Below, one piece after another: positions 3,099 through 62,800 of a stretch of DNA of 64,000 nucleotides. The notes below the pieces were generated by a model. It was not told where the DNA came from. It did not search any database and was given only the letters and a program-made list of their open reading frames with translations. The DNA is from Siphonodentalium dalli (taxonomy: Eukaryota; Mollusca; Scaphopoda; Gadilida; Siphonodentaliidae). The position numbers and the translations under genes were made by a program. The first letter of the stretch is position 1, and each line of letters begins with the position of its first letter. Where the stretch lies: positions 21,948,991 to 22,012,990 of the forward strand of contig CP136061.1 of assembly GCA_032622095.1 (NCBI GenBank). Reading direction: 5' to 3'.

Positions 3099-3351
3099 CA
3101 AGCCTTGAAATAGGGTGTCTGTCATTTGCAGAATGAGGTCCCCAGAGGGTGAATATAGTGATGCTACCCCGCATAGCGGGCTAGCATCACCAAATTCACC
3201 TCTGGGGACCTCATTCTGCTTACACCTCAGCAGAATGAGGTCCCCAGAGGGTGAATTTGGTGATGCTAGCCCGCTATGCGGGGTAGCATCACTAAATTCA
3301 CCCTCTGGGGACCTCATTCTGCAAATGACAGACACCCTATTTCAAGACTTG
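3099..3351. mobile_element. Palindromic MITE, family A (double hairpin), 8-bp TSD
   Basis: The element runs CAAGCCTTGAAATAGGGTGT... to its inverse ...ACACCCTATTTCAAGACTTG and is a palindrome of palindromes: each half contains its own hairpin around TGATGCTA.CCCGC, and the halves are inverse copies of each other. It is flanked by a perfect 8-bp direct repeat, ACTAAAAG (3091-3098 and 3352-3359), which fits hAT-type insertion. The same amino-acid string can be read on both strands, which is a by-product of the palindrome and not a gene. Confidence 0.85.
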
Positions 3352-7610: not shown

Positions 7611-10600
7611 GTATTATAGATGGTCTTATCTCTTCCTATAACAAGTTTTATATAGTTTCCTGGGTATAAAGATGGTCTATCTCTTCCTATAACAAGTTTT
7701 ATATAGTTTCCTGGGTATAAAGATGGTCTTATCTATTCCTATAACAAGTTTTATATAGTTTCCTGGGTATACAGATGGTCTTATCTATTCCTATAACAAG
7801 TTTTATATAGTTTCCTGGGTATAAAGATGGTCTTATCTATTCCTATAACAAGTTTTATATAGTTTCCTGGGTATAAAGATGGTCTTATCTATTCCTATAA
7901 CAAGTTTTATATAGTTTCCTGGGTATAAAGATGGTCTATCTCTTCCTATAACAAGTTTTATATAGTTTCCTGGGTATAAAGATGGTCTATCTCTTCCTAT
8001 AACAAGTTTTATATAGTTTCCTGGGTATAAAGATGGTCTTATCTATTCCTATAACAAGTTTTATATAGTTTCCTGGGTATAAAGATGGTCTATCTCTTCC
8101 TATACCATGTTTTATATAGTTTCCTGGGTATAAAGATGGTCTATCTCTTCCTATACCATGTTTTATATAGTTTCCTGGGTATAAAGATGGTCTATCTCTT
8201 CCTATAACAAGTTTTATATAGTTTCCTGGGTATAAAGATGGTCTTATCTATTCCTATAACAAGTTTTATATAGTTTCCTGGGTATAAAGATGGTCTATCT
8301 CTTCCTATAACAAGTTTTATATAGTTTCCTGGGTATAAAGATGGTCTATCTCTTCCTATACCATGTTTTATATAGTTTCCTGGGTATAAAGATGGTCTAT
8401 CTCTTCCTATACCATGTTTTATATAGTTTCCTGGGTATAAAGATGGTCTATCTCTTCCTATACCATGTTTTTTATAGTTTCCTGGGTATAAAGATGGTCT
8501 ATCTCTTCCTATAACAAGTTTTATATAGTTTCCTGGGTATAAAGATGGTCTTATCTATTCCTATAACAAGTTTTATATAGTTTCCTGGGTATAAAGATGG
8601 TCTATCTCTTCCTATACCATGTTTTATATAGTTTCCTGGGTATAAAGATGGTCTATCTCTTCCTATACCATGTTTTATATAGTTTCCTGGGTATAAAGAT
8701 GGTCTATCTCTTCCTATAACAAGTTTTATATAGTTTCCTGGGTATAAAGATGGTCTTATCTATTCCTATAACAAGTTTTATATAGTTTCCTGGGTATAAA
8801 GATGGTCTTATCTATTCCTATAACAAGTTTTATATAGTTTCCTGGGTATAAAGATGGTCTATCTCTTCCTATAACAAGTTTTATATAGTTTCCTGGGTAT
8901 AAAGATGGTCTATCTCTTCCTATAACAAGTTTTATATAGTTTCCTGGGTATAAAGATGGTCTTATCTATTCCTATAACAAGTTTTATATAGTTTCCTGGG
9001 TATAAAGATGGTCTATCTCTTCCTATACCATGTTTTATATAGTTTCCTGGGTATAAAGATGGTCTATCTCTTCCTATACCATGTTTTATATAGTTTCCTG
9101 GGTATAAAGATGGTCTATCTCTTCCTATAACAAGTTTTATATAGTTTCCTGGGTATAAAGATGGTCTTATCTATTCCTATAACAAGTTTTATATAGTTTC
9201 CTGGGTATAAAGATGGTCTATCTCTTCCTATAACAAGTTTTATATAGTTTCCTGGGTATAAAGATGGTCTATCTCTTCCTATACCATGTTTTATATAGTT
9301 TCCTGGGTATAAAGATGGTCTATCTCTTCCTATACCATGTTTTATATAGTTTCCTGGGTATAAAGATGGTCTATCTCTTCCTATACCATGTTTTTTATAG
9401 TTTCCTGGGTATAAAGATGGTCTATCTCTTCCTATAACAAGTTTTATATAGTTTCCTGGGTATAAAGATGGTCTTATCTATTCCTATAACAAGTTTTATA
9501 TAGTTTCCTGGGTATAAAGATGGTCTATCTCTTCCTATACCATGTTTTATATAGTTTCCTGGGTATAAAGATGGTCTATCTCTTCCTATACCATGTTTTA
9601 TATAGTTTCCTGGGTATAAAGATGGTCTATCTCTTCCTATAACAAGTTTTATATAGTTTCCTGGGTATAAAGATGGTCTTATCTATTCCTATAACAAGTT
9701 TTATATAGTTTCCTGGGTATAAAGATGGTCTATCTCTTCCTATAACAAGTTTTATATAGTTTCCTGGGTATAAAGATGGTCTTATCTATTCCTATAACAA
9801 GTTTTATATAGTTTCCTGGTTATAAAGATGGTCTATCTCTTACTATACCATGTGTTATATAGTTTCCTGGGTATAAAGATGGTCTATCTCTTCCTATACC
9901 ATGTTTTTTATAGTTTCCTGGGTATAAAGATGGTCTATCTCTTCCTATAACAAGTTTTATATAGTTTCCTGGGTATAAAGATGGTCTTATCTATTCCTAT
10001 AACAAGTTTTATATAGTTTCCTGGGTATAAAGATGGTCTATCTCTTCCTATAACAAGTTTTATATAGTTTCCTGGGTATAAAGATGGTCTATCTCTTCCT
10101 ATACCATGTTTTATATAGTTTCCTGGGTATAAAGATGGTCTATCTCTTCCTATACCATGTTTTATATAGTTTCCTGGGTATAAAGATGGTCTATCTCTTC
10201 CTATACCATGTTTTTTATAGTTTCCTGGGTATAAAGATGGTCTATCTCTTCCTATAACAAGTTTTATATAGTTTCCTGGGTATAAAGATGGTCTTATCTA
10301 TTCCTATAACAAGTTTTATATAGTTTCCTGGGTATAAAGATGGTCTATCTCTTCCTATACCATGTTTTATATAGTTTCCTGGGTATAAAGATGGTCTATC
10401 TCTTCCTATACCATGTTTTATATAGTTTCCTGGGTATAAAGATGGTCTATCTCTTCCTATAACAAGTTTTATATAGTTTCCTGGGTATAAAGATGGTCTT
10501 ATCTATTCCTATAACAAGTTTTATATAGTTTCCTGGGTATAAAGATGGTCTATCTCTTCCTATAACAAGTTTTATATAGTTTCCTGGGTATAAAGATGGT

Positions 10601-13600
10601 CTTATCTATTCCTATAACAAGTTTTATATAGTTTCCTGGTTATAAAGATGGTCTATCTCTTACTATACCATGTGTTATATAATTTCCTGGGTATAAAGAT
10701 GGTCTATCTCTTCCTATACCATGTTTTATATAGTTTCCTGGGTATTAAGATGGTCTATCTCTTCCTATACCATGTTTTATATAGTTTCCTGGGTATAAAG
10801 ATGGTCTATCTCTTCCTATACCATGTTTTTTATAGTTTCCTGGGTATAAAGATGGTCTATCTCTTCCTATAACAAGTTTTATATAGTTTCCTGGGTATAA
10901 AGATGGTCTTATCTATTCCTATAACAAGTTTTATATAGTTTCCTGTGTATAAAGATGGTCTATCTCTTCCTATACCATGTTTTATATAGTTTCCTGGGTA
11001 TAAAGATGGTCTATCTCTTCCTATACCATGTTTTATATAGTTTCCTGGGTATAAAGATGGTCTATCTCTTCCTATAACAAGTTTTATATAGTTTCCTGGG
11101 TATAAAGATGGTCTTATCTATTCCTATAACAAGTTTTATATAGTTTCCTGGGTATAAAGATGGTCTATCTCTTCCTATAACAAGTTTTATATAGTTTCCT
11201 GGGTATAAAGATGGTCTTATCTATTCCTATAACAAGTTTTATATAGTTTCCTGGTTATAAAGATGGTCTATCTCTTACTATACCATGTGTTATATAGTTT
11301 CCTGGGTATAAAGATGGTCTATCTCTTCCTATACCATGTTTTTTATAGTTTCCTGGGTATAAAGATGGTCTATCTCTTCCTATAACAAGTTTTATATAGT
11401 TTCCTGGGTATAAAGATGGTCTTATCTATTCCTATAACAAGTTTTATATAGTTTCCTGGGTATAAAGATGGTCTATCTCTTCCTATAACAAGTTTTATAT
11501 AGTTTCCTGGGTATAAAGATGGTCTATCTCTTCCTATACCATGTTTTATATAGTTTCCTGGGTATAAAGATGGTCTATCTCTTCCTATACCATGTTTTAT
11601 ATAGTTTATGGGTATAAAGATGGTCTATCTCTTCCTATACCATGTTTTTTATAGTTTCCTGGGTATAAAGATGGTCTATCTCTTCCTATAACAAGTTTTA
11701 TATAGTTTCCTGGGTATAAAAATGGTCTTATCTATTCCTATAACAAGTTTTATATAGTTTCCTGGGTATAAAGATGGTCTATCTCTTCCTATACCATGTT
11801 TTATATAGTTTCCTGGGTATAAAGATGGTCTATCTCTTCCTATACCATGTTGTATATAGTTTCCTGGGTATAAAGATGGTCTATCTCTTCCTATAACAAG
11901 TTTTATATAGTTTCCTGGGTATAAAGATGGTCTTATCTATTCCTATAACAAGTTTTATATAGTTTCCTGGGTATAAAGATGGTCTATCTCTTCCTATAAC
12001 AAGTTTTATATAGTTTCCTGGGTATAAAGATGGTCTTATCTATTCCTATAACAAGTTTTATATAGTTTCCTGGTTATAAAGATGGTCTATCTCTTACTAT
12101 ACCATGTGTTATATAGTTTCCTGGGTATAAAGATGGTCTATCTCTTCCTATACCATGTTTTTATAGTTTCCTGGGTATAAAGATGGTCTATCTCTTCCTA
12201 TAACAAGTTTTATATAGTTTCCTGGGTATAAAGATGGTCTATCTCTTCCTATACCATGTTTTATATAGTTTCTGGGTATAAAGATGGTCTATCTCTTCCT
12301 ATAACAAGTTTTATATAGTTTCCTGGGTATAAAGATGGTCTTATCTATTCCTATAACAAGTTTTATATAGTTTCCTGGGTATAAAGATGGTCTATCTCTT
12401 CCTATAACAAGTTTTATATAGTTTCCTGGGTATAAAGATGGTCTTATCTATTCCTATAACAAGTTTTATATAGTTTCCTGGTTATAAAGATGGTCTATCT
12501 CTTACTATACCATGTGTTATATAGTTTCCTGGGTATAAAGATGGTCTATCTCTTCCTATACCATGTTTTTTATAGTTTCCTGGGTATAAAGATGGTCTAT
12601 CTCTTCCTATAACAAGTTTTACATAGTTTCGTGGGTATAAAGATGGTCTTATCTATTCCTATAACAAGTTTTATATAGTTTCCTGGTTATAAAGATGGTC
12701 TATCTCTTCCTATACCATGTTTTATATAGTTTCCTGGGTATAAAGATGGTCTATCTCTTCCTATACCATGTTTTATATAGTTTCCTGGGTATAAAGATGG
12801 TCTTATCTATTCCTATAACAAGTTTTATATAGTTTCCTGGGTATAAAGATGGTCTTATCTATTCCTATAACAAGTTTTATATAGTTTCATGGTTATAAAG
12901 ATGGTCTATCTCTTCCTATACCATGTTTTATATAGTTTCCTGGGTATAAAGATGGTCTATCTCTTCCTATAACAAGTTTTATATAGTTTCCTGGGTATAA
13001 AGATGGTCTTATCTATTCCTATAACAAGTTTTATATAGTTTCCTTGTTATAAAGATGGTCTATCTCTTCCTATACCATGTTTTATATAGTTTCCTGGGTA
13101 TAAAGATGGTCTATCTCTTCCTATACCATGTTTTATATAGTTTCCTGGGTATAAAGATGGTCTATCTCTTCCTATAACAAGTTTTATATAGTTTCCTGGT
13201 TATAAAGATGGTCTATCTCTTCCTATACCATGTTTTATATAGTTTCCTGGGTATAAAGATGGTCTATCTCTTCCTATACCATGTTTTATATAGTTTCCTG
13301 GGTATAAAGATGGTCTATCTCTTCCTATACCATGTTTTATATAGTTTCCTGGGTATAAAGATGGTCTTATCTATTCCTATAACAAGTTTTATATAGTTTC
13401 CTGGGTATAAAGATGGTCTTATCTATTCCTATAACAAGTTTTATATAGTTTCCTGGTTATAAAGATGGTCTATCTCTTCCTATACCATGTTTTATATAGT
13501 TTCCTGGGTATAAAGATGGTCTATCTCTTCCTATAACAAGTTTTATATAGTTTCCTGGGTATAAAGATGGTCTTATCTATTCCTATAACAAGTTTTATAT

Positions 13601-16600
13601 AGTTTCCTGGGTATAAAGATGGTCTATCTCTTCCTATACCATGTTTTATATAGTTTCCTGGGTATAAAGATGGTCTATCTCTTCCTATAACAAGTTTTAT
13701 ATAGTTTCCTGGGTATAAAGATGGTCTTATCTATTCCTATAACAAGTTTTATATAGTTTCCTGGGTATAAAGATGGTCTATCTCTTCCTATAACAAGTTT
13801 TATATAGTTTCCTGGGTATAAAGATGGTCTTATCTATTCCTATAACAAGTTTTATATAGTTTCCTGGTTATAAAGATGGTCTATCTCTTACTATACCATG
13901 TGTTATATAGTTTCCTGGGTATAAAGATGGTCTATCTCTTCCTATACCATGTTTTTTATAGTTTCCTGGTTATAAAGATGGTCTATCTCTTCCTATAACA
14001 AGTTTTATATAGTTTCCTGGGTATAAAGATGGTCTATCTCTTCCTATAACAAGTTTTATATAGTTTCCTGGGTATAAAGATGGTCTTATCTATTCCTATA
14101 ACAAGTTTTATACAGTTTCCTGGGTATAAAGATGGTCTATCTCTTCCTATACCATGTTTTATATAGTTTCCTGGGTATAAAGATGGTCTATCTCTTCCTA
14201 TAACAAGTTTTATATAGTTTCCTGGGTATAAAGATGGTCTATCTCTTCCTATACCATGTTTTATATAGTTTCCTGGGTATAAAGATGGTCTATCTCTTCC
14301 TATAACAAGTTTTATATAGTTTCCTGGGTATAAAGATGGTCTATCTCTTCCTATACCATGTTTTATATAGTTTCCTGGGTATAAAGATGGTCTATCTCTT
14401 CCTATACCATGTTTTATATAGTTTCCTGGGTATAAAGATGGTCTATCTCTTCCTATAACAAGTTTTATATAGTTTCCTGGGTATAAAGATGGTCTTATCT
14501 ATTCCTATAACAAGTTTTATATAGTTTCCTGGGTATAAAGATGGTCTATCTCTTCCTATAACAAGTTTTATATAGTTTCCTGGGTATAAAGATGGTCTTA
14601 TCTATTCCTATAACAAGTTTTATATAGTTTCCTGGTTATAAAGATGGTCTATCTCTTACTATACCATGTGTTATATAGTTTCCTGGGTATAAAGATGGTC
14701 TATCTCTTCCTATACCATGTTTTTTATAGTTTCCTGGGTATAAAGATGGTCTATCTCTTCCTATAACAAGTTTTATATAGTTCCCTGGTTATAAAGATGG
14801 TCTATCTCTTCCTATACCATGTTTTATATAGTTTCCTGGGTATAAAGATGGTCTATCTCTTCCTATAACAAGTTTTATATAGTTTCCTGGGTATAAAGAT
14901 GGTCTTATCTATTCCTATAACAAGTTTTATATAGTTTCCTGGGTATAAAGATGGTATATCTCTTCCTATAACAAGTTTTATATAGTTTCCTGGGTATAAA
15001 GATGGTCTTATCTATTCCTATAACAAGTTTTATATAGTTTCCTGGTTATAAAGATGGTCTATCTCTTACTATACCATGTGTTATATAGTTTCCTGGGTAT
15101 AAAGATGGTCTATCTCTTCCTATACCATGTTTTTTATAGTTTCCTGGGTATAAAGATGGTCTATCTCTTCCTATAACAAGTTTTATATAGTTTCGTGGGT
15201 ATAAAGATGGTCTTATCTATTCCTATAACAAGTTTTATATAGTTTCCTGGTTATAAAGATGGTCTATCTCTTCCTATACCATGTTTTATATAGTTTCCTG
15301 GGTATAAAGATGGTCTATCTCTTCCTATACCATGTTTTATATAGTTTCCTGGGTATAAAGATGGTCTTATCTATTCCTATAACAAGTTTTATATAGTTTC
15401 CTGGGTATAAAGATGGTCTTATCTATTCCTATAACAAGTTTTATATAGTTTCATGGTTATAAAGATGGTCTATCTCTTCCTATACCATGTTTTATATAGT
15501 TTCCTGGGTATAAAGATGGTCTATCTCTTCCTATAACAAGTTTTATATAGTTTCCTGGGTATAAAGATGGTCTTATCTATTCCTATAACAAGTTTTGTAT
15601 AGTTTCCTGGGTATAAAGATGGTCTTATCTATTCCTATAACAAGTTTTATATAGTTTCCTTGTTATAAAGATGGTCTATCTCTTCCTATACCATGTTTTA
15701 TATAGTTTCCTGGGTATAAAGATGGTCTATCTCTTCCTATACCATGTTTTATATAGTTTCCTGGGTATAAAGATGGTCTATCTCTTCCTATAACAAGTTT
15801 TATATAGTTTCGTGGGTATAAAGATGGTCTTATCTATTCCTATAACAAGTTTTATATAGTTTCCTGGTTATAAAGATGGTCTATCTCTTCCTATACCATG
15901 TTTTATATAGTTTCCTGGGTATAAAGATGGTCTATCTCTTCCTATACCATGTTTTATATAGTTTCCTGGGTATAAAGATGGTCTTATCTATTCCTATAAC
16001 AAGTTTTATATAGTTTCCTGGGTATAAAGATGGTCTTATCTATTCCTATAACAAGTTTTATATAGTTTCATGGTTATAAAGATGGTCTATCTCTTCCTAT
16101 ACCATGTTTTATATAGTTTCCTGGGTATAAAGATGGTCTATCTCTTCCTATAACAAGTTTTATATAGTTTCCTGGGTATAAAGATGGTCTTATCTATTCC
16201 TATAACAAGTTTTATATAGTTTCCTTGTTATAAAGATGGTCTATCTCTTCCTATACCATGTTTTATATAGTTTCCTGGGTATAAAGATGGTCTATCTCTT
16301 CCTATACCATGTTTTATATAGTTTCCTGGGTATAAAGATGGTCTATCTCTTCCTATAACAAGTTTTATATAGTTTCCTGGTTATAAAGATGGTCTATCTC
16401 TTCCTATACCATGTTTTATATAGTTTCCTGGGTATAAAGATGGTCTATCTCTTCCTATACCATGTTTTATATAGTTTCCTGGGTATAAAGATGGTCTATC
16501 TCTTCCTATACCATGTTTTATATAGTTTCCTGGGTATAAAGATGGTCTTATCTATTCCTATAACAAGTTTTATATAGTTTCCTGGGTATAAAGATGGTCT

Positions 16601-19600
16601 TATCTATTCCTATAACAAGTTTTATATAGTTTCCTGGTTATAAAGATGGTCTATCTCTTCCTATACCATGTTTTATATAGTTTCCTGGGTATAAAGATGG
16701 TCTATCTCTTCCTATAACAAGTTTTATATAGTTTCCTGGGTATAAAGATGGTCGTATCTATTCCTATAACAAGTTTTATATAGTTTCCTGGGTATAAAGA
16801 TGGTCTATCTCTTCCTATACCATGTTTTATATAGTTTCCTGGGTATAAAGATGGTCTATCTCTTCCTATAACAAGTTTTATATAGTTTCCTGGGTATAAA
16901 GATGGTCTTATCTATTCCTATAACAAGTTTTATATAGTTTCCTGGGTATAAAGATGGTCTATCTCTTCCTATAACAAGTTTTATATAGTTTCCTGGGTAT
17001 AAAGATGGTCTTATCTATTCCTATAACAAGTTTTATATAGTTTCCTGGTTATAAAGATGGTCTATCTCTTACTATACCATGTGTTATATAGTTTCCTGGG
17101 TATAAAGATGGTCTATCTCTTCCTATACCATGTTTTTTATAGTTTCCTGGGTATAAAGATGGTCTATCTCTTCCTATAACAAGTTTTATATAGTTTCCTG
17201 GGTATAAAGATGGTCTATCTCTTCCTATAACAAGTTTTATATAGTTTCCTGGGTATAAAGATGGTCTTATCTATTCCTATAACAAGTTTTATACAGTTTC
17301 CTGGGTATAAAGATGGTCTATCTCTTCCTATACCATGTTTTATATAGTTTCCTGGGTATAAAGATGGTCTATCTCTTCCTATAACAAGTTTTATATAGTT
17401 TCCTGGGTATAAAGATGGTCTATCTCTTCCTATACCATGTTTTATATAGTTTCCTGGGTATAAAGATGGTCTATCTCTTCCTATAACAAGTTTTATATAG
17501 TTTCCTGGGTATAAAGATGGTCTATCTCTTCCTATACCATGTTTTATATAGTTTCCTGGGTATAAAGATGGTCTATCTCTTCCTATACCATGTTTTATAT
17601 AGTTTCCTGGGTATAAAGATGGTCTATCTCTTCCTATAACAAGTTTTATATAGTTTCCTGGGTATAAAGATGGTCTTATCTATTCCTATAACAAGTTTTA
17701 TATAGTTTCCTGGGTATAAAGATGGTCTATCTCTTCCTATAACAAGTTTTATATAGTTTCCTGGGTATAAAGATGGTCTTATCTATTCCTATAACAAGTT
17801 TTATATAGTTTCCTGGTTATAAAGATGGTCTATCTCTTACTATACCATGTGTTATATAGTTTCCTGGGTATAAAGATGGTCTATCTCTTCCTATACCATG
17901 TTTTTTATAGTTTCCTGGGTATAAAGATGGTCTATCTCTTCCTATAACAAGTTTTATATAGTTTCCTGGTTATAAAGATGGTCTATCTCTTCCTATACCA
18001 TGTTTTATATAGTTTCCTGGGTATAAAGATGGTCTATCTCTTCCTATAACAAGTTTTATATAGTTTCCTGGGTATAAAGATGGTCTTATCTATTCCTATA
18101 ACAAGTTTTATATAGTTTCCTGGGTATAAAGATGGTCTATCTCTTCCTATAACAAGTTTTATATAGTTTCCTGGGTATAAAGATGGTCTTATCTATTCCT
18201 ATAACAAGTTTTATATAGTTTCCTGGTTATAAAGATGGTCTATCTCTTACTATACCATGTGTTATATAGTTTCCTGGGTATAAAGATGGTCTATCTCTTC
18301 CTATACCATGTTTTTTATAGTTTCCTGGGTATAAAGATGGTCTATCTCTTCCTATAACAAGTTTTATATAGTTTCGTGGGTATAAAGATGGTCTTATCTA
18401 TTCCTATAACAAGTTTTATATAGTTTCCTGGTTATAAAGATGGTCTATCTCTTCCTATACCATGTTTTATATAGTTTCCTGGGTATAAAGATGGTCTATC
18501 TCTTCCTATACCATGTTTTATATAGTTTCCTGGGTATAAAGATGGTCTTATCTATTCCTATAACAAGTTTTATATAGTTTCCTGGGTATAAAGATGGTCT
18601 TATCTATTCCTATAACAAGTTTTATATAGTTTCATGGTTATAAAGATGGTCTATCTCTTCCTATACCATGTTTTATATAGTTTCCTGGGTATAAAGATGG
18701 TCTATCTCTTCCTATAACAAGTTTTATATAGTTTCCTGGGTATAAAGATGGTCTTATCTATTCCTATAACAAGTTTTGTATAGTTTCCTGGGTATAAAGA
18801 TGGTCTTATCTATTCCTATAACAAGTTTTATATAGTTTCCTTGTTATAAAGATGGTCTATCTCTTCCTATACCATGTTTTATATAGTTTCCTGGGTATAA
18901 AGATGGTCTATCTCTTCCTATACCATGTTTTATATAGTTTCCTGGGTATAAAGATGGTCTATCTCTTCCTATAACAAGTTTTATATAGTTTCCTGGTTAT
19001 AAAGATGGTCTATCTCTTCCTATACCATGTTTTATATAGTTTCCTGGGTATAAAGATGGTCTATCTCTTCCTATACCATGTTTTATATAGTTTCCTGGGT
19101 ATAAAGATGGTCTATCTCTTCCTATACCATGTTTTATATAGTTTCCTGGGTATAAAGATGGTCTTATCTATTCCTATAACAAGTTTTATATAGTTTCCTG
19201 GGTATAAAGATGGTCTTATCTATTCCTATAACAAGTTTTATATAGTTTCCTGGTTATAAAGATGGTCTATCTCTTCCTATACCATGTTTTATATAGTTTC
19301 CTGGGTATAAAGATGGTCTATCTCTTACTATACCATGTGTTATATAGTTTCCTGGGTATAAAGATGGTCTATCTCTTACTATACCATGTGTTATATAGTT
19401 TCCTGGGTATAAAGATGGTCTATCTCTTCCTATACCATGTTTTTTATAGTTTCCTGGGTATAAAGATGGTCTATCTCTTCCTATAACAAGTTTTATATAG
19501 TTTCCTGGGTATAAAGATGGTCTTATCTATTCCTATAACAAGTTTTATATAGTTTCCTGGGTATAAAGATGGTCTATCTCTTCCTATACCATGTTTTATA

Positions 19601-21776
19601 TAGTTTCCTGGGTATAAAGATGGTCTTATCTATTCCTATAACAAGTTTTATATAGTTTCCTGGGTATAAAGATGGTCTTATCTATTCCTATAACAAGTTT
19701 TATATAGTTTCCTGGTTATAAAGATGGTCTATCTCTTCCTATACCATGTTTTATATAGTTTCATGGTTATAAAGATGGTCTATCTCTTCCTATACCATGT
19801 TTTATATAGTTTCCTGGGTATAAAGATGGGCTTATCTATTCCTATAACAAGTTTTATATAGTTTCCTGGTTATAAAGATGGTCTATCTCTTCCTATACCA
19901 TGTTTTATATAGTTTCCTGGGTATAAAGATGGTCTTATATATTCCTATAACAAGTTTTATATAGTTTCCTGGTTATAAAGATGGTCTATCTCTTCCTATA
20001 CCATGTTTTATATAGTTTCATGGTTATAAAGATGGTCTATCTCTTCCTATACCATGTTTTTTATAGTTTCCTGGGTATAAAGATGGTCTATCTCTTCCTA
20101 TAACAAGTTTTATATAGTTTCCTGGGTATAAAGATGGTCTTATCTATTCCTATAACAAGTTTTATATAGTTTCCTGGTTATAAAGATGGTCTATCTCTTC
20201 CTATACCATGTTTTATATAGTTTCCTGGGTATAAAGATGGTCTATCTCTTCCTATACCATGTTTTATATAGTTTCCTGGGTATAAAGATGGTCTTATCTA
20301 TTCCTATAACAAGTTTTATATAGTTTCCTGGGTATAAAGATGGTCTTATCTATTCCTATAACAAGTTTTATATAGTTTCATGGTTATAAAGATGGTCTAT
20401 CTCTTCCTATACCATGTTTTATATAGTTTCCTGGGTATAAAGATGGTCTTATCTATTCCTATAACAAGTTTTGTATAGTTTCCTGGGTATAAAGATGGTC
20501 TTATCTATTCCTATAACAAGTTTTATATAGTTTCCTGGTTATAAAGATGGTCTATCTCTTCCTATACCATGTTTTATATAGTTTCCTGGGTATAAAGATG
20601 GTCTATCTCTTCCTATACCATGTTTTATATAGTTTCCTGGGTATAAAGATGGTCTATCTCTTCCTATAACAAGTTTTATATAGTTTCCTGGTTATAAAGA
20701 TGGTCTATCTCTTCATATACCATGTTTTATATAGTTTCCTGGGTATAAAGATGGTCTATCTCTTCCTATACCATGTTTTATATAGTTTCCTGGGTATAAA
20801 GATGGTCTATCTCTTCCTATACCATGTTTTATATAGTTTCCTGGGTATAAAGATGGTCTTATCTATTCCTATAACAAGTTTTATATAGTTACCTGGGTAT
20901 AAAGATGGTCTTATCTATTCCTATAACAAGTTTTATATAGTTTCATGGTTATAAAGATGGTCTATCTCTTCCTATACCATGTTTTATATAGTTTCCTGGG
21001 TATAAAGGTGGTCTATCTCTTCCTATAACAAGTTTTATATAGTTTCCTGGGTATAAAGATGGTCTATCTCTTCCTATACCATGTTTTATATAGTTTCCTG
21101 GGTATAAAGATGGTCTTATCTATTCCTATAACAAGTTTTATATAGTTTCCTGGTTATAAAGATGGTCTATCTCTTCCTATACCATGTTTTATATAGTTTC
21201 CTGGGTATAAAGATGGTCTATCTCTTCCTATACCATGTTTTATATAGTTTCCTGGGTATAAAGATGGTCTTATCTATTCCTATAACAAGTTTTATATAGT
21301 TTCCTGGGTATAAAGATGGTCTATCTCTTCCTATACCATGTTTTATATAGTTTCCTGGGTATAAAGATGGTCTTATCTATTCCTATAACAAGTTTTATAT
21401 AGTTTCCTGGTTATAAAGATGGTCTATCTCTTCCTATACCATGTTTTATATAGTTTCCTGGGTATAAAGATGGTCTATCTCTTCCTATACCATGTTTTAT
21501 ATAGTTTCCTGGGTATAAAGATGGTCTTATCTATTCCTATAACAAGTTTTATATAGTTTCCTGGGTATAAAGATGGTCTATCTCTTCCTATAACAAGTTT
21601 TATATAGTTTCATGGTTATAAAGATGGTCTTATCTATTCCTATAACAAGTTTTATATAGTTTCCTGGGTATAAAGATGGTCTATCTCTTCCTATACCATG
21701 TTTTATATAGTTTCCTGGTTATAAAGATGGTCTATCTCTTCCTATACCAAGTGTTATATAGTTTCGTGGGTATAAA
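7611..21776 (+). repeat. 14-kb satellite array of 51/52-bp units
   Basis: About 275 head-to-tail units of the form AAAGATGGTC..TATCT, TTCCTATA.CA.GTTTTATA, TAGTTTCCTGGGTAT fill this block without other sequence. Two main variants alternate: a 51-bp one (GGTCTATCTCTTCCTATACC) and a 52-bp one (GGTCTTATCTATTCCTATAA). A rarer one (CTTACTATACCATGTGTTAT) recurs at intervals that are multiples of the unit, e.g. about 816, 409 and 3180 bp, so there is higher-order structure. Runs of 51-bp units stay open as MVYLFLYHVLYSFLGIK per unit, but every 52-bp unit breaks the frame, so this is not a gene. If the missing AASS 5' exons lie upstream, the array is intronic. Confidence 0.95.
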
Positions 21777-25756: not shown

Positions 25757-25760
25757 TCTG

Positions 25761-25835
25761 CCTCATACATTCACCCATTCTGAACCTCTTTTTCAGGAAT
25801 GTTCAAGCTGAGGGGAAATTTATGTCTAGAATTTG
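25761..25835 (+). repeat. Duplicated 3' splice-site unit upstream of AASS exon A
   Basis: CCTCATACATTCACC, TTCTGAACCTCTTTTTCAGG and a degenerate copy of the first ~30 exon bases occur here and again 75 bp later at the true boundary (CAG at 25794-25796 and at 25869-25871). Using the upstream AG would read GAA TGT TCA AGC TGA, an immediate stop in the AASS frame. It is a decoy or a remnant of the duplication. Confidence 0.75.
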
Positions 25836-25871
25836 TCTCATACATTCACCCTTTCTGAACCTCTTTTTCAG

Positions 25872-26048
25872 GAGTATGCAAACAGAGGGGCAATTATTCA
25901 GGAGGATATGTCTGAAGCCTCCTTCATCATCGGTGTTAAACAGGTGCCAGAGGACATCCTCCTTCCTGACAAAGCATACGCCTTCTTCTCACACACGATC
26001 AAGGCTCAGGAAGCTAATATGTCTCTACTTGACACCATAGTTCAGAAG
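25872..26048 (+). CDS. AASS: AASS exon A: N-terminal reductase domain
   Basis: 59 codons, phase 0 at both ends, between TTTTTCAG and GTATGT. The translation starts [16 protein letters not shown] and contains [16 protein letters not shown] and [14 protein letters not shown]. The last stretch is the hallmark FSHTIKAQ segment of the lysine-ketoglutarate reductase N-terminal (alanine dehydrogenase/PNT-like) domain, implicated in substrate binding. It aligns collinearly with the vertebrate segment beginning DYVKAGGILQEDISEA. The acceptor region is duplicated 75 bp upstream. The exon before it is not in the window. A family A MITE begins only 17 bases after the donor. Confidence 0.95.
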
Positions 26049-38779: not shown

Positions 38780-38813
<34 letters not shown>

Positions 38814-41800
38814 CAACGAAGTTAGGGGGGTATACTGGAATCAGCTTATCCGTCTTTCGTCCGTCTGTCCGTGAACACAAATTTGTCCGGAGTTTTTCTC
38901 AGTTGTTTTTTTTATCAATTTCCGTGAAACTTGGCACAGACATCAACCACCATGGGAACCTGTGCAACTGCGAAAATGACGTCTGTCGGACATTTTTTGG
39001 TGGAGTTATCCCCCCTTTTTGGACTTAGAAATTTTTCGCAACATGTTTAATTTTGTTCGAGCTCTTATTCCTACATTTTTAGGTCAATTTTTAAAAAACT
39101 TGGCACAGATATTTAGTACCAATGGAACCTGTGCACCTGCAATTATGACATCTGTCCGACATTGTTTGGTGGAGTTATCCCACTTTTCCGACTTAGAATT
39201 TTTTTTGCAACATGCATAATTTTGTCCGAGCTTTTATTCCTACATTTTTAGGTCAATGTTTATTAATCTTGGCACTGATATTTAGTACCATGGGAACCTG
39301 TGCACCTGCGATTATGATGTCTGTCCGACTTTTGTTTGTTAAGTTATTCCCCTTTTTCGACTTAGAACATTTTCGCAACATGCATAATTTTGTCCGAGCT
39401 TTTATTCCTACATTTTTCAGTCAATAGGTTTAAGATTAGGGTTAGAGTTGTGCACCTGCAATGGGAACTGTTATTTTATTATTTAACTAAATGTTTACTG
39501 ACATGTGAAACATCTTAGTATTTTAAAAACACGAGACAGTCACACCTCTAGTTTATATTGGGGGATGTTAAGTAATTTTATAGGAATTACCACTGCATAT
39601 TTTGCCACGCCCCAGCAATGTTCTTGTTAGCGCTATACTTGTACTATGACATAAATGACAAACAAAGATACATATTAAGATGAAACAGAAGCATATCATA
39701 GGGAATTGAACACAGACTATTAACTATGTCCCACCTCCAGTAAGAAACAATGTCTTTGATTGGTCAATAACTTATAATAATGTTGTCTTACCAAGTGGAT
39801 ATGACATTGCCTTTCGGGGTAATATAGCTAATATTTTCTGATATTTTATTGAAATAATTCCTCATGAATGAGTATAACAAAATTTCTACATGTATTTACT
39901 GATAAACTTCTGAATTTTTTAAAGGGAGCTCAAGAAATATTTCAAGAATTTCCATACGAGTATGTGTCGCCAGAATATTTACCCAAGATTTCCAGAATAG
40001 GAGGTGAGCAATACATGTTATCGCTGCAGTGAATTGATCTGAGCGAAGTATCACGTTGAGTGGAAGAGGTCAGATCTCTGGATCAAATGAGCCACTGCTG
40101 GCATCAAGTTGGATCCAGCGATCTGACCTCTTCAAATTCTGTTATGAATTGAAACCCCATATGTAGGCCACTAGTATAACAAGAATAAACAAGGAACTAA
40201 TGAGTGGTTCCGCCTCCAATTTTCACCCAGAGTTATGGCCCTTTGTTGAATTACCATCGGCATATTTTGCCACTCCCTAGTGATGCTCTTGTTTATTTTT
40301 ATAATTGTTTGTAGTAACTTTTTTTGTGGGTGATTTTAACAAATGACGATTGTGTATTGAGTAGAGAGGGTGATTTTAACAGATGACGATTGTGTATTGC
40401 AGTCACTAAAAAGCTGTATGCTTGTGTATTGAGTAGAGAGGGTGATTTTAACAGATGACGCTTGTGTATTGCAGTCACTAAAAAGCTGTATGCTTGTGTA
40501 TTGAGTAGAGAGGGTGGTTTTAACTGATAACGATTGTGTATTACAGCCAATAACAAGCTGTATGCTTGTGTATTGAGTAGAGAGGGTGATTTTAACTGAT
40601 AATGATTGTGTATTACAGCCACTAACAAGCTGTATGCTTGTGTATTGAGTAGAGGGGGTGATTCTGATGACGATTGTGTATTGCAGTCACTAAAAAGCTG
40701 TATGCTTGTGTATTGAGTAGAGAGGGTGATTTTAACAGATGACGATTGTGTATTGCAGTCACTAAAAAGCTGTATGCTTGTGTATTGAGTAGAGAGGGTT
40801 GTTTTAACTGATAACGATTGTGTATTACAGCCACTAACAAGCTGTATGCTTGTGTATTGAGTAGAGAGGGTGGTTTTAACTGATAATGGATTGTGTATTA
40901 CAGCCACTAACAAGCTGTATGCTTGTATAGTGAGTAGAGAGGGTGATTTTAACTGATAATGATTGTGTATTACAGCCACTAACAAGCTGTATGCTTGTGT
41001 ATTGAGTAGAGAGGGTGGTTTTAACTGATAATGATTGTGTATTACAGCCACTAACAAGCTGTATGCTTGTATAGTGAGTAGAGAGGGTGATTTTAACTGA
41101 TAATGATTGTGTATTACAGCCACTAACAAGCTGTATGCTTGTGTATTGAGTAGAGAGGGTGGTTTTAACTGATAATGATTGTGTATTACAGCCACTAACA
41201 AGCTGTATGCTTATGTATTGAGTAGAGAGGGTGATTTTAACTAATAATGATTGTGTATTACAGCCACTAACAAGCTGTATGCTTATGTATTGAGTAGAGA
41301 GGGTGATTTTAACTAATAATGATTGTGTATTACAGCCACTAACAACTGTTTGCTTGTGTATTGAGTAGAGAGGGTGGTTTTAACTGATAATGATTGTGTA
41401 TTACAGCCACTAACAAGCTGTATGCTTGTGTATTGAGTAGATAGGGTGGTTTTAACTGATAACGATTGTGTATTGCAGCCAATAACAAGCTGTATGCTTG
41501 TGTATTGAGTAGAGAGGGTGGTTTTAACTGATAACGATTGTGTATTGCAGCCAATAACAAGCTGTATGCTTGTGTATTGAGTAGAGAAGGTGATTTTAAC
41601 TGATAACGATTGTGTATTGCAGCCAATAACAAGCTGTATGCTTGTGTATTGAGTAGAGAGGGTGGTTTTAACTGATAACGATTGTGTATTGCAGCCAATA
41701 ACAAGCTGTATGCTTGTGTATTGAGTAGAGAGGGTGGTTTTAACTGATAACGATTGTGTATTGCAGCCAATAACAAGCTGTATGCTTGTGTATTGAGTAG

Positions 41801-44800
41801 AGAGGGTGGTTTTAACTGATAACGATTGTGTATTGCAGCCAATAACAAGCTGTATGCTTGTGTATTGAGTAGAGAGGGTGGTTTTAACTGATAACGATTG
41901 TGTATTACCGCCACTAACAAGCTGTATGCTTGTGTATTGAGTAGAGAGGGTGGTTTTAACTGATAACGATTTTGTATTGCAGCCAATAACAAGCTGTATG
42001 CTTGTGTATTGAGTAGAGAGGGTGGTTTTAACTGATAACGATTGTGTATTGCAGCCAATAACAAGCTGTATGCTTGTGTATTGAGTAGAGAGGGTGGTTT
42101 TAACTGATAACGATTGTGTATTGCAGCCAATAACAAGCTGTATGCTTGTGTATTGAGTAGAGAGGGTGGTTTTAACTGATAACGATTGTGTATTACCGCC
42201 ACTAACAAGCTGTATGCTTGTGTATTGAGTAGAGAGGGTGGTTTTAACTTATAACGATTGTGTATTGCAGCCAATAACAAGCTGTATGCTTGTGTATTGA
42301 GTAGAGAGGGTGGTTTTAACTGATAACGATTGTGTATTGCAGCCAATAACAAGCTGTATGCTTGTGTATTGAGTAGAGAGGGTGGTTTTAACTGATAACG
42401 ATTGTGTATTGCAGCCAATAACAAGCTGTATGCTTGTGTATTGAGTAGAGAGGGTGGTTTTAACTGATAACGATTGTGTATTACAGCCACTAACAAGCTG
42501 TATGCTTGTGTATTGAGTCGAGTGGGTGATTTTAACTGATAACGATTGTGTATTACAGCCACTAACAAGCTGTATGCTTGTGTCGTGAGTCGAGAGGACC
42601 ACTATGTGAGGAAGAAGGGTGGAAAATTCGACAGCGATGAATTCGATCAACATCCAGATAGATATGTATCTACCTTCAGTCATAAGGTCAGTGGCAGGTC
42701 TTCAGTTAGGATAGGATAGGAGCATTTTATTTGCAATAGACACATGGAAAGTACAAATATAAATATATATTTTAAAGGCCCACTTAATTTTCGAGCCCCC
42801 AGATCACATATATAAAATATATGCCATAGTATATACCATTTACACAGGGGCCTGTAACGCACTCCGCTGTCTGCCCCCCTTTTGCGCTGCCTATATACGC
42901 CGCTTCTATATACGCGCCTGCTTCACGCTAATGGTAGTATAATAGACACAAAGGGAACTGTAGAAATTCACCTTTTTACCATCCCTCGGCAATTGGACAA
43001 ATTTAGGCCATTCACACCAGTAATGCTAACAATATAGCCACGGATGTATTGGCGAAGAATTCATCTTTCAATCAATACCACAAACTCCCATCAGAACCAT
43101 TCATATACATAGCATTTGATAAATTTTTAACCACCGAATATTGTCTCCGAAGATTCTAATACTGAGCGGTGATTGGCTGCTTCTACTATTGCAGTCATAG
43201 CCCGGTGGCTTAGGGTCAAAATTTAGCAAAATCGTGACAGACCGGATTAAAGCATGAAACTTTGCCGATATGTAAAATGGGATATGGGAAATGTTTTTAG
43301 AGGGGGGTGCCCGGGCTGCGGGTCATGGTTCAGGAGAATTTCTGGTTTCCATGGTAACGTCATAAAATATTTGGGGAAAAGTGAAAAAATGCCCCAGTAT
43401 GGAAACAGTTAGACTTGTGTTTGAATAAATGATGTGAACTCATAGTGAAATCAATGGTCCATCAACTGAACTGGGACACTATGACATGTAGGGTCAAGGT
43501 CAACCACTAAGGTTAAGGTCATTGGAAAATATATCATTTTTCTGTCTATTTTTTATTGATGGTCTCATATGCCGCCAACCCTCATGCTTTAGTCAAAAGG
43601 CATTCCCTTTCATATATGCACAAACAAATAGGGCATCACCACCATGTTCAATTTGGTATATGATATACTTTATTTCATATGGTCGTTGTTTACTTTTGAT
43701 AACCTTAAGTTTAGATCATCACATTTTTTAGATACCACTTTTTATGGTATTTGTGCAATTACGGCCTGGACTATGCTAAAGATAAATACAGTGAATTTTA
43801 ATTTTACCCTCACAAATAAATATTAAATATAGTCATACGACGTAAATATAGAGCGATTGTGTTGTGTTAATATTAGTATTAGAGTTTTTGGGTTGAGTTG
43901 GTAATTTTAATACACAACATATATCTTGTTGCCATGGCAACTGTTAGCGAAAATATCGCAACATTACCATTTTCGAATGAAAATGATAAGGCTTTGCGAA
44001 TAATTTCTCAGAATTAATTCCACCGACATGTCCTATATCAGAAATTCATTCACTTCGGAGGTAAAATATTGACTTATATGAACATAATTATGGTTTCCAT
44101 GACAACCATTATCCCAAATAATGTCACAATATCCAATTTAATTGACTTTTTGTGTATTACTTCCTCAATTTCGTTCAGAAAAACTTCAATGCGTAATACT
44201 ATCCGCGGGGTAAGTTAGTTATAAATGTCCATTACAAATAATATGTTGGGTGGACCCAATGTACTTGTTTCCATAGCAACTGTTTCAAATTTGATCACTG
44301 ACATAGTAACATTTCTGTCAACTTCAGTAGACTTTAGAAGATTATCGAATGCTAAAATCCACATGGGTAACATATTATTACCGAAAAAGGCAACCACATA
44401 AATTAATTATACCTGTTGTACTATTCCATGTAATTCGATTCTGTCCTATCCATGCAAAAATGAAAAACACGTTGTTCTATGATCGGAGACGTGGCTAGAT
44501 GGTCTCCCCTGGGAGTGTCTGCCTTGGAATTTTCAACTGAACCCTCCCACTTGATCCACACCAACATATGGGTCTGGTCCAACCATTTTTGACGGAGATA
44601 TGTCCCTTTTCGACTCAGATGTGACATGTGGATCATAAAAATACAGGTAAAATTCGAAAATGGTTTGGTTCAATGAATGTTATCTGTTATGCCCCTTTTT
44701 GTCTGGGGACGGGAACTTCATTTAGTGTGTACAATTTAACCCTCTCTGTTAAACTTTCCACCAACGCCCCAAGGTCTCATGGGAGCATGATTCTCTCAGT

Positions 44801-53800: not shown

Positions 53801-56800
53801 AACATGCGAAAACTCGCCATTACAAAGTGGCCCTAATAGTATTTCATACTTGAGATACCAGTTGGACAATTCAAACCCAGAGGGGTGCAAATGAAATTTC
53901 CAAAGACTTGAAAATTTCTGTGGGCGGGATACCCAGATTCAAGCCCTAGATTATTTATATCCGCGTACTAATGACAATGTCTCTTGCAATTTCAGATAGC
54001 GCCATACACATCCTGCTTAATAAATGGGTTATACTGGGCTGTAAACAGTCCACGTCTCATGACCATTCCAGATGCCAAAGTTCTGCTTCAACCGCATGTA
54101 GCTCCATGGTTGCCGCAGAAACCAGGGTGCCCCATTCTTCCACACAGACTGATTTCCATTTGTGATATATCTGCTGATCCCGGAGGCTCCATTGAATTTA
54201 TGAAGGAATGCACAACAATTGACCAGCCATTCTGTTTATATGATGCAGAGCAAAATATGAATACCGAAAGGTTCGCCAAACTTTTGATCTTATTTCAATT
54301 TTTTATTGATTAATGTATTATTGTTGTTTACAAGTCTCCAGTTCACAGACCTATGTGCTGTATCTATGCAAAGGCTCACAATTTCTGCACAAACTCAGTA
54401 ATTATGCCCCCTGTAATGAAGTTATGGTGGTATATAGGAACCAGCTTGTCCGTCCATGGATGCAACTTTATCCGAGCTTGTATTCCTACATTTTTTTTTA
54501 AAACTTGGCACAGATATTTAGTACCATGGGAACCTGCGCACCTGTGATTAGGAGCCCGATCCAACTTTTGCTAGTTGAGTTATCCATAGATAATAGAAAT
54601 TTTTTGTAACATGCATAATTTTGTCCGAGCTTTGTATTCCTTGTTAATTGGCTATCCTTGATGTAGCCAAATTGCACTGCAGGGGTATCCTTAGTTCAAT
54701 TGCGACGATTGTGTTTGGAACATTGTACAGCGATCTAGTCTATGAACTAATTGTCATGTGCGCGAGGGCGCTGATTTATTGGCTAAGGATTTGTATGAAA
54801 TTGTATCCCTTATCTACATCTGTATCCAATCTTCGTATTTATCATGTTGGCTTCAGTATTAATGTAATCACACAATTAACATTAAAGATGCATACTCCGA
54901 TTAAACAACCCTATTTCTATTTCGTTGGCTTCAGTGGTAAAAAATATTTGATCCAGTCGAGGAACCCATCCATCAAAGCTCAGAGTTATTAGATTTTGAT
55001 TTTTGAAATATGTTTATTTTTCACCAATGGAAATATTTGGCGGCCTGGGAAAAATCAGCTGACTTCTTACAAAAATAGTACAGGCACGCGCCGTTACTAG
55101 ATGTCATGCAAGGTCACTGCTCAATATACAATCAGCGCATTGGTGGCAATCGCAAATTATTCAGAATGAAAAGTATCGCCATCAACAAGAATACATTATG
55201 TTGTGATAGATGACAGGAGGGTACATGCATTATACTTATTTATGAATCGGTAATCATGTTTTATCCATACAAATATACATGTTATATGATACCATGCTGG
55301 TTACACATGGAAATACTATGTGTTTACATTGGTGACAACACTTGTTGGGGAATTCCAATTTGAATTAGGAATCACCATATATGGAAGTTGCAAACCACAC
55401 TCGCTCGTCGTACAAACCGCCAAGAAATAACATTATAATGGGACTTTTTCGGCAAATATGATATCGTGCTTGGTATCACTGTGAGTATTTATTGGTAATA
55501 CTCTAATTTGGATAACTAAATTGGCTTGTGGTGAAATTTCGTTGATTTAACTGGATGAGTCGGGGACCATTGTGTACCTTTATACTCTGTTCAGTTTGAA
55601 ATTACAGGCACAATTGGTTTTTGCAGGTCATTAATAATTTTATGCCTGTCAAATAAATTTTCACGAGTACCGTATATGCTATGTGTAATGAGTACCATAT
55701 ATGCTATGTGTTACCGGACATGAGTACTGTATATGCTATGTGTTACCAGACATGAGTGCCGTATATACTATGTGTTACCAGGCATGAGTACCATATATGC
55801 TGTTTTAACGGACATGAATATTGTATATGCTATGTGTTACCAGGCATGAGTACCATATATGCTATGTGTTACCGGACATGAGCACCGTATATGCTATGTG
55901 TTACCGGACATGAGTACCGTATATGCTATGTGTTACCAGACATCAGTACTGTATATGCTATGTGTTATGGGACAATTCAGGTATCTAATAAAATAAAATT
56001 ATTAGACATAACTTGAAATAAGATATATTTTGTCTAATTTGGTTCATACCACCTTCTCGCTAATGAACAACTATATATGTATATTTTTATGAGTGTGCCA
56101 GATATGACTTCTTATTAATTATAATGAGCCCCAGTAATTGGTAAACACCAACACAAATAGAACACTGAAAAAACTCAAGATTCACCAAGATTTGTTTCTG
56201 TAACCATTGGGTGCGTACTATGTACTATTCGAAAGTCGTTGCATTTTGTTTATTTGAAGAAAGAACTCAATTTTGTTTGCCACAAGCCTAATATCGACTA
56301 TGTTTAGATGCATTGAAAACACCATTATCTCTTGAAATGATTGTAGTTTTGCTGGTAACGGTGTACTGATCTGCTCCATTGATAACATGCCAGCTCAGAT
56401 TCCAAGGGAGGCAACTGATTTCTTTGGAGTGCTGCTGTTTCCATACATTGAACAGATGGTAAGAATTAGTTTCAAAACATGGCTCGTTTGAGAGGAGGAA
56501 TATTAAAAGGACATATTAAAAAAAAACCAAAATTATATATACTTAATTTGGTAAGAGGTATCTTAACCCTTTGAACCCGAGAGACCGGAATACCGGTCCA
56601 ATCCTTATATTCCTTAATCCTGGGAGACCGGAATACCGGTCCGGAAATCAGACGATATTTGACACAAAATTACAGCTCAATAAACGCACATATCAACTAG
56701 AGTTGTACTTCTACTTTGCACACACGTGTCACATGTTTACCAACGTGACTTTGATCAACAAACTGTCGACAGAGGGTTTGTTTCTTTGCGCATGCGCAGA

Positions 56801-59800: not shown

Positions 59801-62800
59801 AGATTTATGGCTAATTTTTCAGGATTTAGTCGGAAATATGGCTTGTTGCCATTCATCGGAAATGGTGAAAAGTGAGAGCTTTCCGATGAATGGCAACAAG
59901 CCATATTTCCGACTAAATCCTGAAAAGTTATCCATAATTCTGCTGTGGTTAAGGAGTCGATTATTTAGGGTATTACTGTATAATCTGAGACTTCAAATTA
60001 CTGTCAGTGATCCAGCTAAATGCGCTTAGCCCTTTCATGATGGGAGCTGCGCTGGTGCAGCATTAGAGATCATGTGCCAGTGCATATGCGAGTCTTGGGA
60101 GCCTCCCATATATAAGAGAATGCACTGGCTTACAAGGTCAAGTTAAATAATGTTAGACCAATGTATCCTCTTATATATGCGAGGCTCCCTATTGGAGACT
60201 CGCATATATAAGAGAATGCATTGACACAGGGTTTTCGCAAAATTACAGGAAGCTTCAGTCAAGGAAGGGTTAACCTCTTCGCTGCTAAATAACGTTATGA
60301 CGTCGTGTGCTGGGCTGTTGACGTTATTGCCATTTTCCAATGGGAAACTATAACGGGAATACCACAAGAACTATAAAACTGACTCGGTTGAAAGGCTATT
60401 ATCGTTCACAATCGTTGAACATCATACACTGTTAGAAACTTGGAGATACAGTTATTCCGATGCACCAATCTCTGAGTTCCAGTTATGTTTAATGGCCTAC
60501 TTCTAGTGTGCTGAATTAGGTCCGTAGTACCTACGGACCATATAGCACACGGCATGCACTTTTACGTCCGTAATAGTTACGGACGTCATAGCAGCGAAGA
60601 GGTTAATTTCCTGTATGGCTAGAATTATGACTAGCGTCAAGATTCTTGTTATTTTCTGATATATTATGAATTTTCAGTTACTTTGTGATGCCAACGTTCC
60701 ATTCCAAGATCTGGAAGTTGATCCTGTAGTGAAAAATGTAAGTATATATTTAACTCTACTTAGATAAGATGTAATAACGCCACACAAAGTCATTTTCCAT
60801 TTTCTCAGACCCACGTTCATGGTCCCGGAAACTCGCATGTGCAACCTTACTGTTCGTGTTCAATCTGTCTGAGAAAGTTACAACATAATTGTGATACATC
60901 TTTATACAAAGACGCACGGAATTTAGATCGAACAGACCAGTTTACTAGTTCAGATTTCCTAGTCATTACTCTAACTGGTAACTATGTTCAAACATTTGTT
61001 AAACATGTGATGCATTTCGATTGTAATCTCAGTAAAAATGTGTCGGTCATACTTGACTGGGCGATTTTTTTATGAAATAAATCATATTAGTTAATAACAT
61101 CTTTTGGGGAAATAATGGCCACAGGCGACTGAAATTAAACCAGATATCCAATGCAGAGTTGGAATGCGTTGTTGTCGTGTGCCCCAGAAATAAAAAAATA
61201 GATAGATGGCCTGATAGACGGGGAAACTGACTTTGAATGGCCTAACTAGGGGATTAATGCTTATTTAGTAGCACTACGGGGCCAATAATGGTCCACTCCC
61301 ACTGTATTAAAGTTGAATCTTTCCTTTTATGTCAAATTTAATTAAATTGAAATTATTTGCTTTATTTTTTTTACGACAAAGTCTAAAGTTTGCAATCAAT
61401 GTAAACAACATAGATCAGTTTCTGAGATTGAATTATGCTGTGTTACTATTTCCCTTCCATATTTTCCTACACAGATGTCTCTTAAAGGGACACTTTATAT
61501 CCTTTCAAGGATAAACATGCCTATAGTAGTATGACTTTTCACCTTGGTGTAAACAATATTTATTTCAAAAAAATCAAACATTTGACATAAACATAATATA
61601 CATGTAGAATATATAGATTTATGAAGAGGATTGGACAACAAGCAAAATGCTTTTTTAAAGTCCTCTCCTCGTGGAATAAATGTTACCTCAAGTGACAAAA
61701 ATATCACTTGGGGTAAAGCAGACGGGATATATACTTTTGATTGATTGGAATATTATTTAGGATTGAGATACGGTATAACATTGTAATACGGAAGTTAAGG
61801 ATGAGAAAGGGAATGAAAGAGAATGAGAGAGAGAGGGGAGAGAGAGAGAGAGAGAGGTTTGACACAACATACATTCGATACAAAATAACACAAAAAACAT
61901 CCGTTCAGTGGGGAAATCACTTGCACGAATGCGTCACGACCACAGAGGAGAAAAAGCACTTTTCACCTTGGGATACCTTGAATATATATTCCAGGCGATC
62001 ATCACTGCCAATGGAAAACTTACACCAAACTTTGAGTACATTACTGATATGCGAAAAGCAAGGGAAGTGAGGTAGGTAATGTTATGCATTATCAAATTAT
62101 TTGGCAATTAAGATATCAAAAGCTCAAGGTCGGGAACCTATGTCATTTTTTTCAAAAATGGTGACAAGTTGTCACACATGGTAATTTCAACATTTGTTTT
62201 TTCCATATTTTTCAAAGATATCTACAATTCATCAGACCAATGAGCTACAGTAATGCTCTAATTAATCGACCTCTTAACCACAGCAGAATTATGGGTAACT
62301 TTTCAGGATTTAGTCGGAAATATGGCTTGTTGCCATTCATCGGAAAGCTCTCGCCGAGAGCTTTCTGATGAATGGCAACAAGCCATATTTCCAACTAAAT
62401 CCTGAAAAGTTACCCATAATTCTGCTGTGGTTAAAAAGTCGATTACTTAGAGCATTACTGTATTTAATATTATGTGATGAGCAAAGACAGGAATAGGATG
62501 AATCCTCACATAAACATGTTGAAACAGTCTCAAATAACATAAAGAATTTACTTAAGATCATTTATTGTGCTCTATTTGTCCATTACAAAGACATTTCGGA
62601 CAAATAATGTTGAACTTTTTAAAGAGGTGGAGATGACTTTCAAATTACCTGCCCGAAATAGCATGCATGCTAAAATTAGATTTCTAGATTTTCCCAGTGA
62701 CAGTGGGTTTGCTAAAATTAAGAGGCGGACAATCATGTTAGTGAATGTCAAACAACCAATCACAAGCGTGGATCAGGCTTAGATAGTCACGTGAGATAAA

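Follow-up and report, generated by a model that had tools for sequence, protein, structure and literature searches.

The closest described relatives of the locus reported here are the mirages of lancelet (Branchiostoma) genes, minisatellite-like tandem duplications of an intron-exon boundary in which the units contain splice signals, the interior is homogenised and the boundary unit is divergent. In the available text of the two accounts, mirages are described in Adh3 and in the globin genes BflGb6 and BflGb9 (PMC3087553), with PGBD5 and troponin C as additions (PMC3902484). A human relative, as far as the accessible text describes it, is the VNTR in intron 18 of ABCA7, which is likewise intronic and shows a length tied to splicing; its unit starts with a donor, and a single unit can be kept in the mRNA (PMC5954066). 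The available part of a further paper describes test pre-mRNAs whose 3' splice site had been duplicated: identical acceptors stand in tandem, part of the exon follows the upstream acceptor, and it is the distal site that is used (PMC5389562). Those constructs were engineered and had two copies, whereas the array described below is natural and has about 30. The design reportedly goes back to Reed and Maniatis in 1986 and was used again in the later paper.

The array in AASS is a real, locally born, long mirage, and adds a large new case to a peculiarity known from lancelet genes. The 36% GC and the long introns of this DNA fit a lancelet poorly. Like that of BflGb6 it lies on the acceptor side, and Adh3 has units of 10-72 bp (PMC3087553, PMC3902484); the two BflGb6 haplotypes, however, carry 6 and 3 units of 150-160 bp, whereas AASS has 31 upstream units of 72 bp. 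The ABCA7 repeat differs in lying on the donor side, in its 25-bp unit and frame-shifting retention, and in having measured effects and a disease association (PMC5954066). AASS is not among the genes named in the available text of the lancelet accounts (PMC3087553, PMC3902484), and the titles and abstract openings among the literature matches listed told of no comparable array in AASS or in any mollusc.

The AASS gene

The window, the whole stretch of 64,000 bases that was analysed (36% GC), contains part of AASS (lysine-ketoglutarate reductase/saccharopine dehydrogenase) on the plus strand. Exons were located by tblastn with human AASS and then read at base level; the exon that follows the array was matched with an E value of 6e-07. 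The final model comprises ten exons that join into 1,333 nt, stop-free and with all introns GT-AG, and on that ground a pseudogene was rejected; across these ten located exons the host gene is intact and the authentic boundary is kept. The structure and Pfam matches were made with hand-joined residues, two residues short of the final model near its last two exons. A total of 447 of these residues matched the solved human AASS (8dda; E 1.8e-168), 5l76 matched the opening stretch of the second enzyme part (E 4.2e-07), and the AlaDh_PNT_N and AlaDh_PNT_C domains were above cut-off. Homology stops near residue 514 of 926 and the first exon, sought in the window, was not found, so the gene presumably continues past the window. 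Splice scores here and below derive from approximate Shapiro-Senapathy-type matrices and are a coarse guide. The donor of the exon at 61995 lies at 62072 (GAG/GTAGGT, score 9.0) and the acceptor of the last exon at 62860; the exon at 53996-54270, with an apparently weak donor (AAG/GTTCGC at 54271, 3.8), was placed by frame and homology only. Two exons flank the array:

39925 to 40003, plus strand: AASS exon before the array, ending in phase 1, donor GAG/GTGAGC
42559 to 42686, plus strand: authentic AASS exon of 128 bp, acceptor ATTACAG/CC, donor AAG/GTCAGT

Anatomy of the array

Tandem Repeats Finder (TRF) returned a repeat of period 72 at 40350-42597, with 31.3 copies, 95% matches and a score of 3850. 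Splitting by hand resolved 32 units, counted in the assembled sequence of one haplotype, which span the intron-exon boundary and occupy 87% of the 2,555-bp intron before the 42559-42686 exon:

40327 to 42594, plus strand: 72-bp minisatellite of 32 units (31 upstream plus the authentic boundary, U32), in the founder register TGGGTG...GTCGAG
40329 to 40368, plus strand: U1, the 5'-terminal unit, cut to 40 bp and without acceptor (register split)
41877 to 41948, plus strand: U23, acceptor AG changed to CG (register split, acceptor scan)
42165 to 42236, plus strand: U27, acceptor AG changed to CG (register split, acceptor scan)
42453 to 42524, plus strand: U31, boundary unit that keeps the founder junction GTCGAG/TGGGTG (register split, junction reading)

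U2 to U31 are full units of 68, 71, 72 or 73 bp, and U32 is the exon's own 3' splice site. The shortening of U1 looks like a deletion between the two TTGTGTATT words of the unit. Pairwise identity among U2-U31 averages 94.2% (gaps left out; minimum 86.1%), and 32 of 435 pairs are identical; the interior of the array is homogenised, with the boundary unit excluded. At lags of one to eight units, likeness is highest at lags 4 and 1 (96.3 and 96.2%). U23 and U27 share the CG change at a distance of 288 bp, or four units, which suggests block duplication, and the recurrent subtypes U9/U11 and U23/U27 point the same way.

Local origin and growth

The left flank of the array reads TTTTGTGGGTGATTTT and the U31/U32 junction GAGTCGAGTGGGTGATTTT, which identifies U31 as exon sequence ending in GTCGAG fused to intron sequence beginning TGGGTG, with one base common to both. 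The intron flank joined in U31 is still present at 40326-40331, and the segment that was duplicated, exactly 72 bp long, spans 42523-42594. The original prediction had traced the array to the 3' splice site of the exon itself and regarded the unit next to the exon (GAGTCGAG) as intermediate in sequence. That unit is U31, with the founding junction preserved, and junction and left flank together uphold the derivation; on these comparisons a local origin is well supported. Three exon positions separate the upstream units from the exon: base 26 is A in all 30 full upstream units and C in the exon; base 27 is T in 28 of 30 and G in the exon, with U9 and U11 keeping G; and base 33 is A in 29 of 30 and C in both the exon and U31. 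When the exon boundary with 100-base flanks was compared with the window outside the array, the best match, of 36 bp and E 3e-05, fell where the query covers the following intron; other short matches had E values of 0.017 or worse. An unrelated repeat family was rejected as the source, there being no convincing second copy within the window.

The array most likely began when a 72-bp segment, the last 36 intron bases and first 36 exon bases, was tandemly duplicated where a single base matched. Exon bases 26-27 of the upstream copy would then have changed (CG to AT), and slippage or unequal exchange, multi-unit blocks included, would have expanded the altered copy to about 30 units, with the outermost units spared homogenisation. 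This is the order of events that we infer.

A second duplicated acceptor and the repeat background

A smaller duplication of an acceptor lies further upstream in the same gene; the original prediction mentioned neither it nor the in-frame cassettes described below:

25759 to 25833, plus strand: diverged copy of the next exon's 3' splice site and first exon bases, lying 75 bp upstream; decoy AG ends at 25796, stop as fifth codon
25872 to 26048, plus strand: AASS exon with the duplicated acceptor; authentic copy starts at 25834

The two copies, 25759-25820 and 25834-25895, are identical at 54 of 62 positions and lie 75 bp apart; their last 19 intron bases are identical, and decoy and real acceptor both score 9.0. 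The AASS region is repeat-rich. Between 22000 and 64000, nearby direct repeats, defined as at least 40 bp long, at least 80% identical and no more than 2.5 kb apart, make up 20.6% of the non-exonic sequence and 4.7% of the exonic sequence. Two of the 20 exon boundaries, both acceptors, fall inside such repeats, and the donor at 62072 lies outside every listed segment. Against a cover of 20.6%, two in 20 is no excess, and boundary targeting by the duplication process was rejected.

Other elements in the window

In a 14-kb array at 7618-21776 a 51-bp unit is repeated about 276 times with 94-95% matches; the array is not open in one translated reverse frame. A short dispersed element, TGGGGACCTCATTCNGCAAATG, has 14 matches on both strands with at most 2 mismatches (0.00 expected), at 3123, 3306, 7251, 7533, 23642, 26089, 30265, 30654, 30735, 31862, 35703, 51820, 52519 and 52832; several form nearby opposite-strand pairs, and the element is perhaps a MITE. 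A 156-aa open frame on the minus strand (1032-1499) has a match to a MULE transposase domain below the Pfam cut-off, and a run of 32 C occupies 38781-38812. A 420-aa open frame runs antisense through the AASS array (41339-42601, minus strand) with one Pfam match below cut-off; we rejected antisense coding and think that the frame probably stays open just because the unit length is a multiple of three. Rfam and tRNA scans of the window gave no match, and a bacterial promoter and terminator scan, not meaningful for this DNA, gave 1 promoter-like site against 9.2 expected.

Decoy acceptors and the choice of splice site

The acceptor AG is kept in 28 of the 30 full upstream units (CG in U23 and U27), and U32 is the authentic boundary, so the roughly 30 near-identical acceptors predicted ahead of the real one are indeed present. 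A branch-point-like CTRAY, whose A lies 20-21 nt upstream of the exon start, occurs in 26 of the 30 and not in U2, U3, U7 or U28. Both signals had been attributed to the unit correctly; the accompanying figure of about 37 exon bases becomes 36 in the founder and 39 in the cassette described below. Entry from the 39925-40003 exon into any of the 28 AG decoys leads to a stop after 9-32 codons (17 in most), as expected, although the right frame that each decoy was thought to enter fails in U15 and U16. The 28 decoys score 4.3-6.7 against 4.5 for the authentic acceptor, and the ten authentic AASS acceptors range from -3.7 to 10.9. Since the decoys score like the authentic site, acceptor strength does not explain which is chosen, and no RNA fold that hides the decoys was found in three 144-nt stretches (z -0.72, 0.14 and -0.10). 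The puzzle of how a distal acceptor is selected is thus a real one, but it has precedent in the lancelet mirages and in the engineered pre-mRNAs with two copies of a 3' splice site.

Our favoured reading, which we consider likely to be correct, is that the array is a locally born minisatellite of the mirage kind, near-neutral, from behind which the authentic acceptor is most probably still chosen. The authentic acceptor alone would open the complete 128-nt exon with its good donor, the decoys holding only 36-39 exon bases, and it is on this ground that we expect its use to continue; use of a decoy would mostly lead to an early stop and mRNA decay. Near-neutrality of the array is likewise a judgement from sequence. 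The available text on lancelet mirages is consistent with it: going by RT-PCR and earlier data, these mirages do not seem to disturb regular splicing, or are inferred not to (PMC3087553, PMC3902484). In the available account of duplicated beta-globin 3' splice sites, upstream copies with 14, 55 or 205 exon bases all gave splicing to the distal site only (PMC5389562). The 205-base construct behaved like the others, so a truncated exon is not established there as the cause of distal choice.

Published observations, each taken from the available text of its source, count against near-neutrality: distal splicing of the duplicated beta-globin sites was very inefficient, so that decoys could lower AASS output (PMC5389562); two U2 snRNPs could bind when the duplicated 3' splice site was a stronger one (PMC5389562); and longer ABCA7 arrays went with lower expression and more exon skipping (PMC5954066). 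The array might act as a length-dependent damper, with decoys occupying U2AF/U2 or diverting transcripts to stop-containing isoforms and longer alleles giving less AASS. The equal scores of decoys and authentic site and the early stop behind every AG decoy would suit such a role, as would the beta-globin inefficiency and the donor-side precedent of ABCA7, but the lancelet mirages were reported without interference in splicing and the sequence analysis found no sign of regulation. We regard this role as unlikely. For the regulated or leaky loss of lysine catabolism suggested in the original prediction, the sequence weighs neither for nor against.

In-frame 39-nt cassettes

The junction between units creates a GT 39 nt past the acceptor. 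The founder cassette consequently combines a branch-point word, an acceptor, 39 stop-free in-frame nucleotides and a GT donor, and 26 of the 30 full units retain AG-39 nt-GT, in frame and stop-free between the neighbouring exons, as potential 13-residue micro-exons. The exceptions are U15 (frame shift by a 1-nt deletion), U16 (stop inside the 39 nt) and U23 and U27, which are without AG. The best-scoring candidate is in U18:

41551 to 41589, plus strand: U18 cassette of 39 nt in frame; its acceptor scores 4.7 and its donor AAG/GTGATT 8.3, the donor of the exon itself scoring 8.4

Eight other junction donors score 6.2, and U9 and U11 also carry a GTGAGT word that scores 6.8. Splicing of some units into the mRNA, each adding 13 residues to the LKR domain, would exploit this geometry, but a single founder event explains it, with a one in three chance of a multiple of three. 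Moreover, 19 of the 31 junction donors score 3.6, under all ten authentic AASS donors (3.8-10.3); the remaining three score -0.3, 4.7 and 5.3. Neighbouring cassettes would leave introns of 33 nt, which would limit joining to distant ones. In raw counts, which differ modestly, minority cells number 33 in 38 columns of the exonic half against 48 in 35 columns of the intronic half, with 12 against 11 variant types; we counted this against near-neutrality. Several of the exonic-half changes alter the peptide, which speaks against micro-exon use. We take neither the geometry nor the exonic-half variation as evidence that cassettes are used, and consider their inclusion very improbable. There is a slight chance that the array serves as a store of some 26 in-frame micro-exons from which the LKR domain could acquire a new exon, which would show intron and exon gain at an intermediate stage.

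That an assembly artefact has inflated or reduced the copy number we judge least probable of all: the draft-genome version of one lancelet mirage appears, in the available text, aberrantly assembled (PMC3087553), but an artefact is not expected to create the many distinct changes between units, the three length changes besides the truncated end unit, or the recurring subtypes.

Implications

The AASS array is a natural, large-scale counterpart of the duplicated-3'-splice-site experiment, with 28 near-identical acceptors, all upstream of the real one, in a conserved metabolic gene. The weight of acceptor order against exon completeness is directly measurable here from cDNA. If the host is not a lancelet, the array extends mirages to another lineage.
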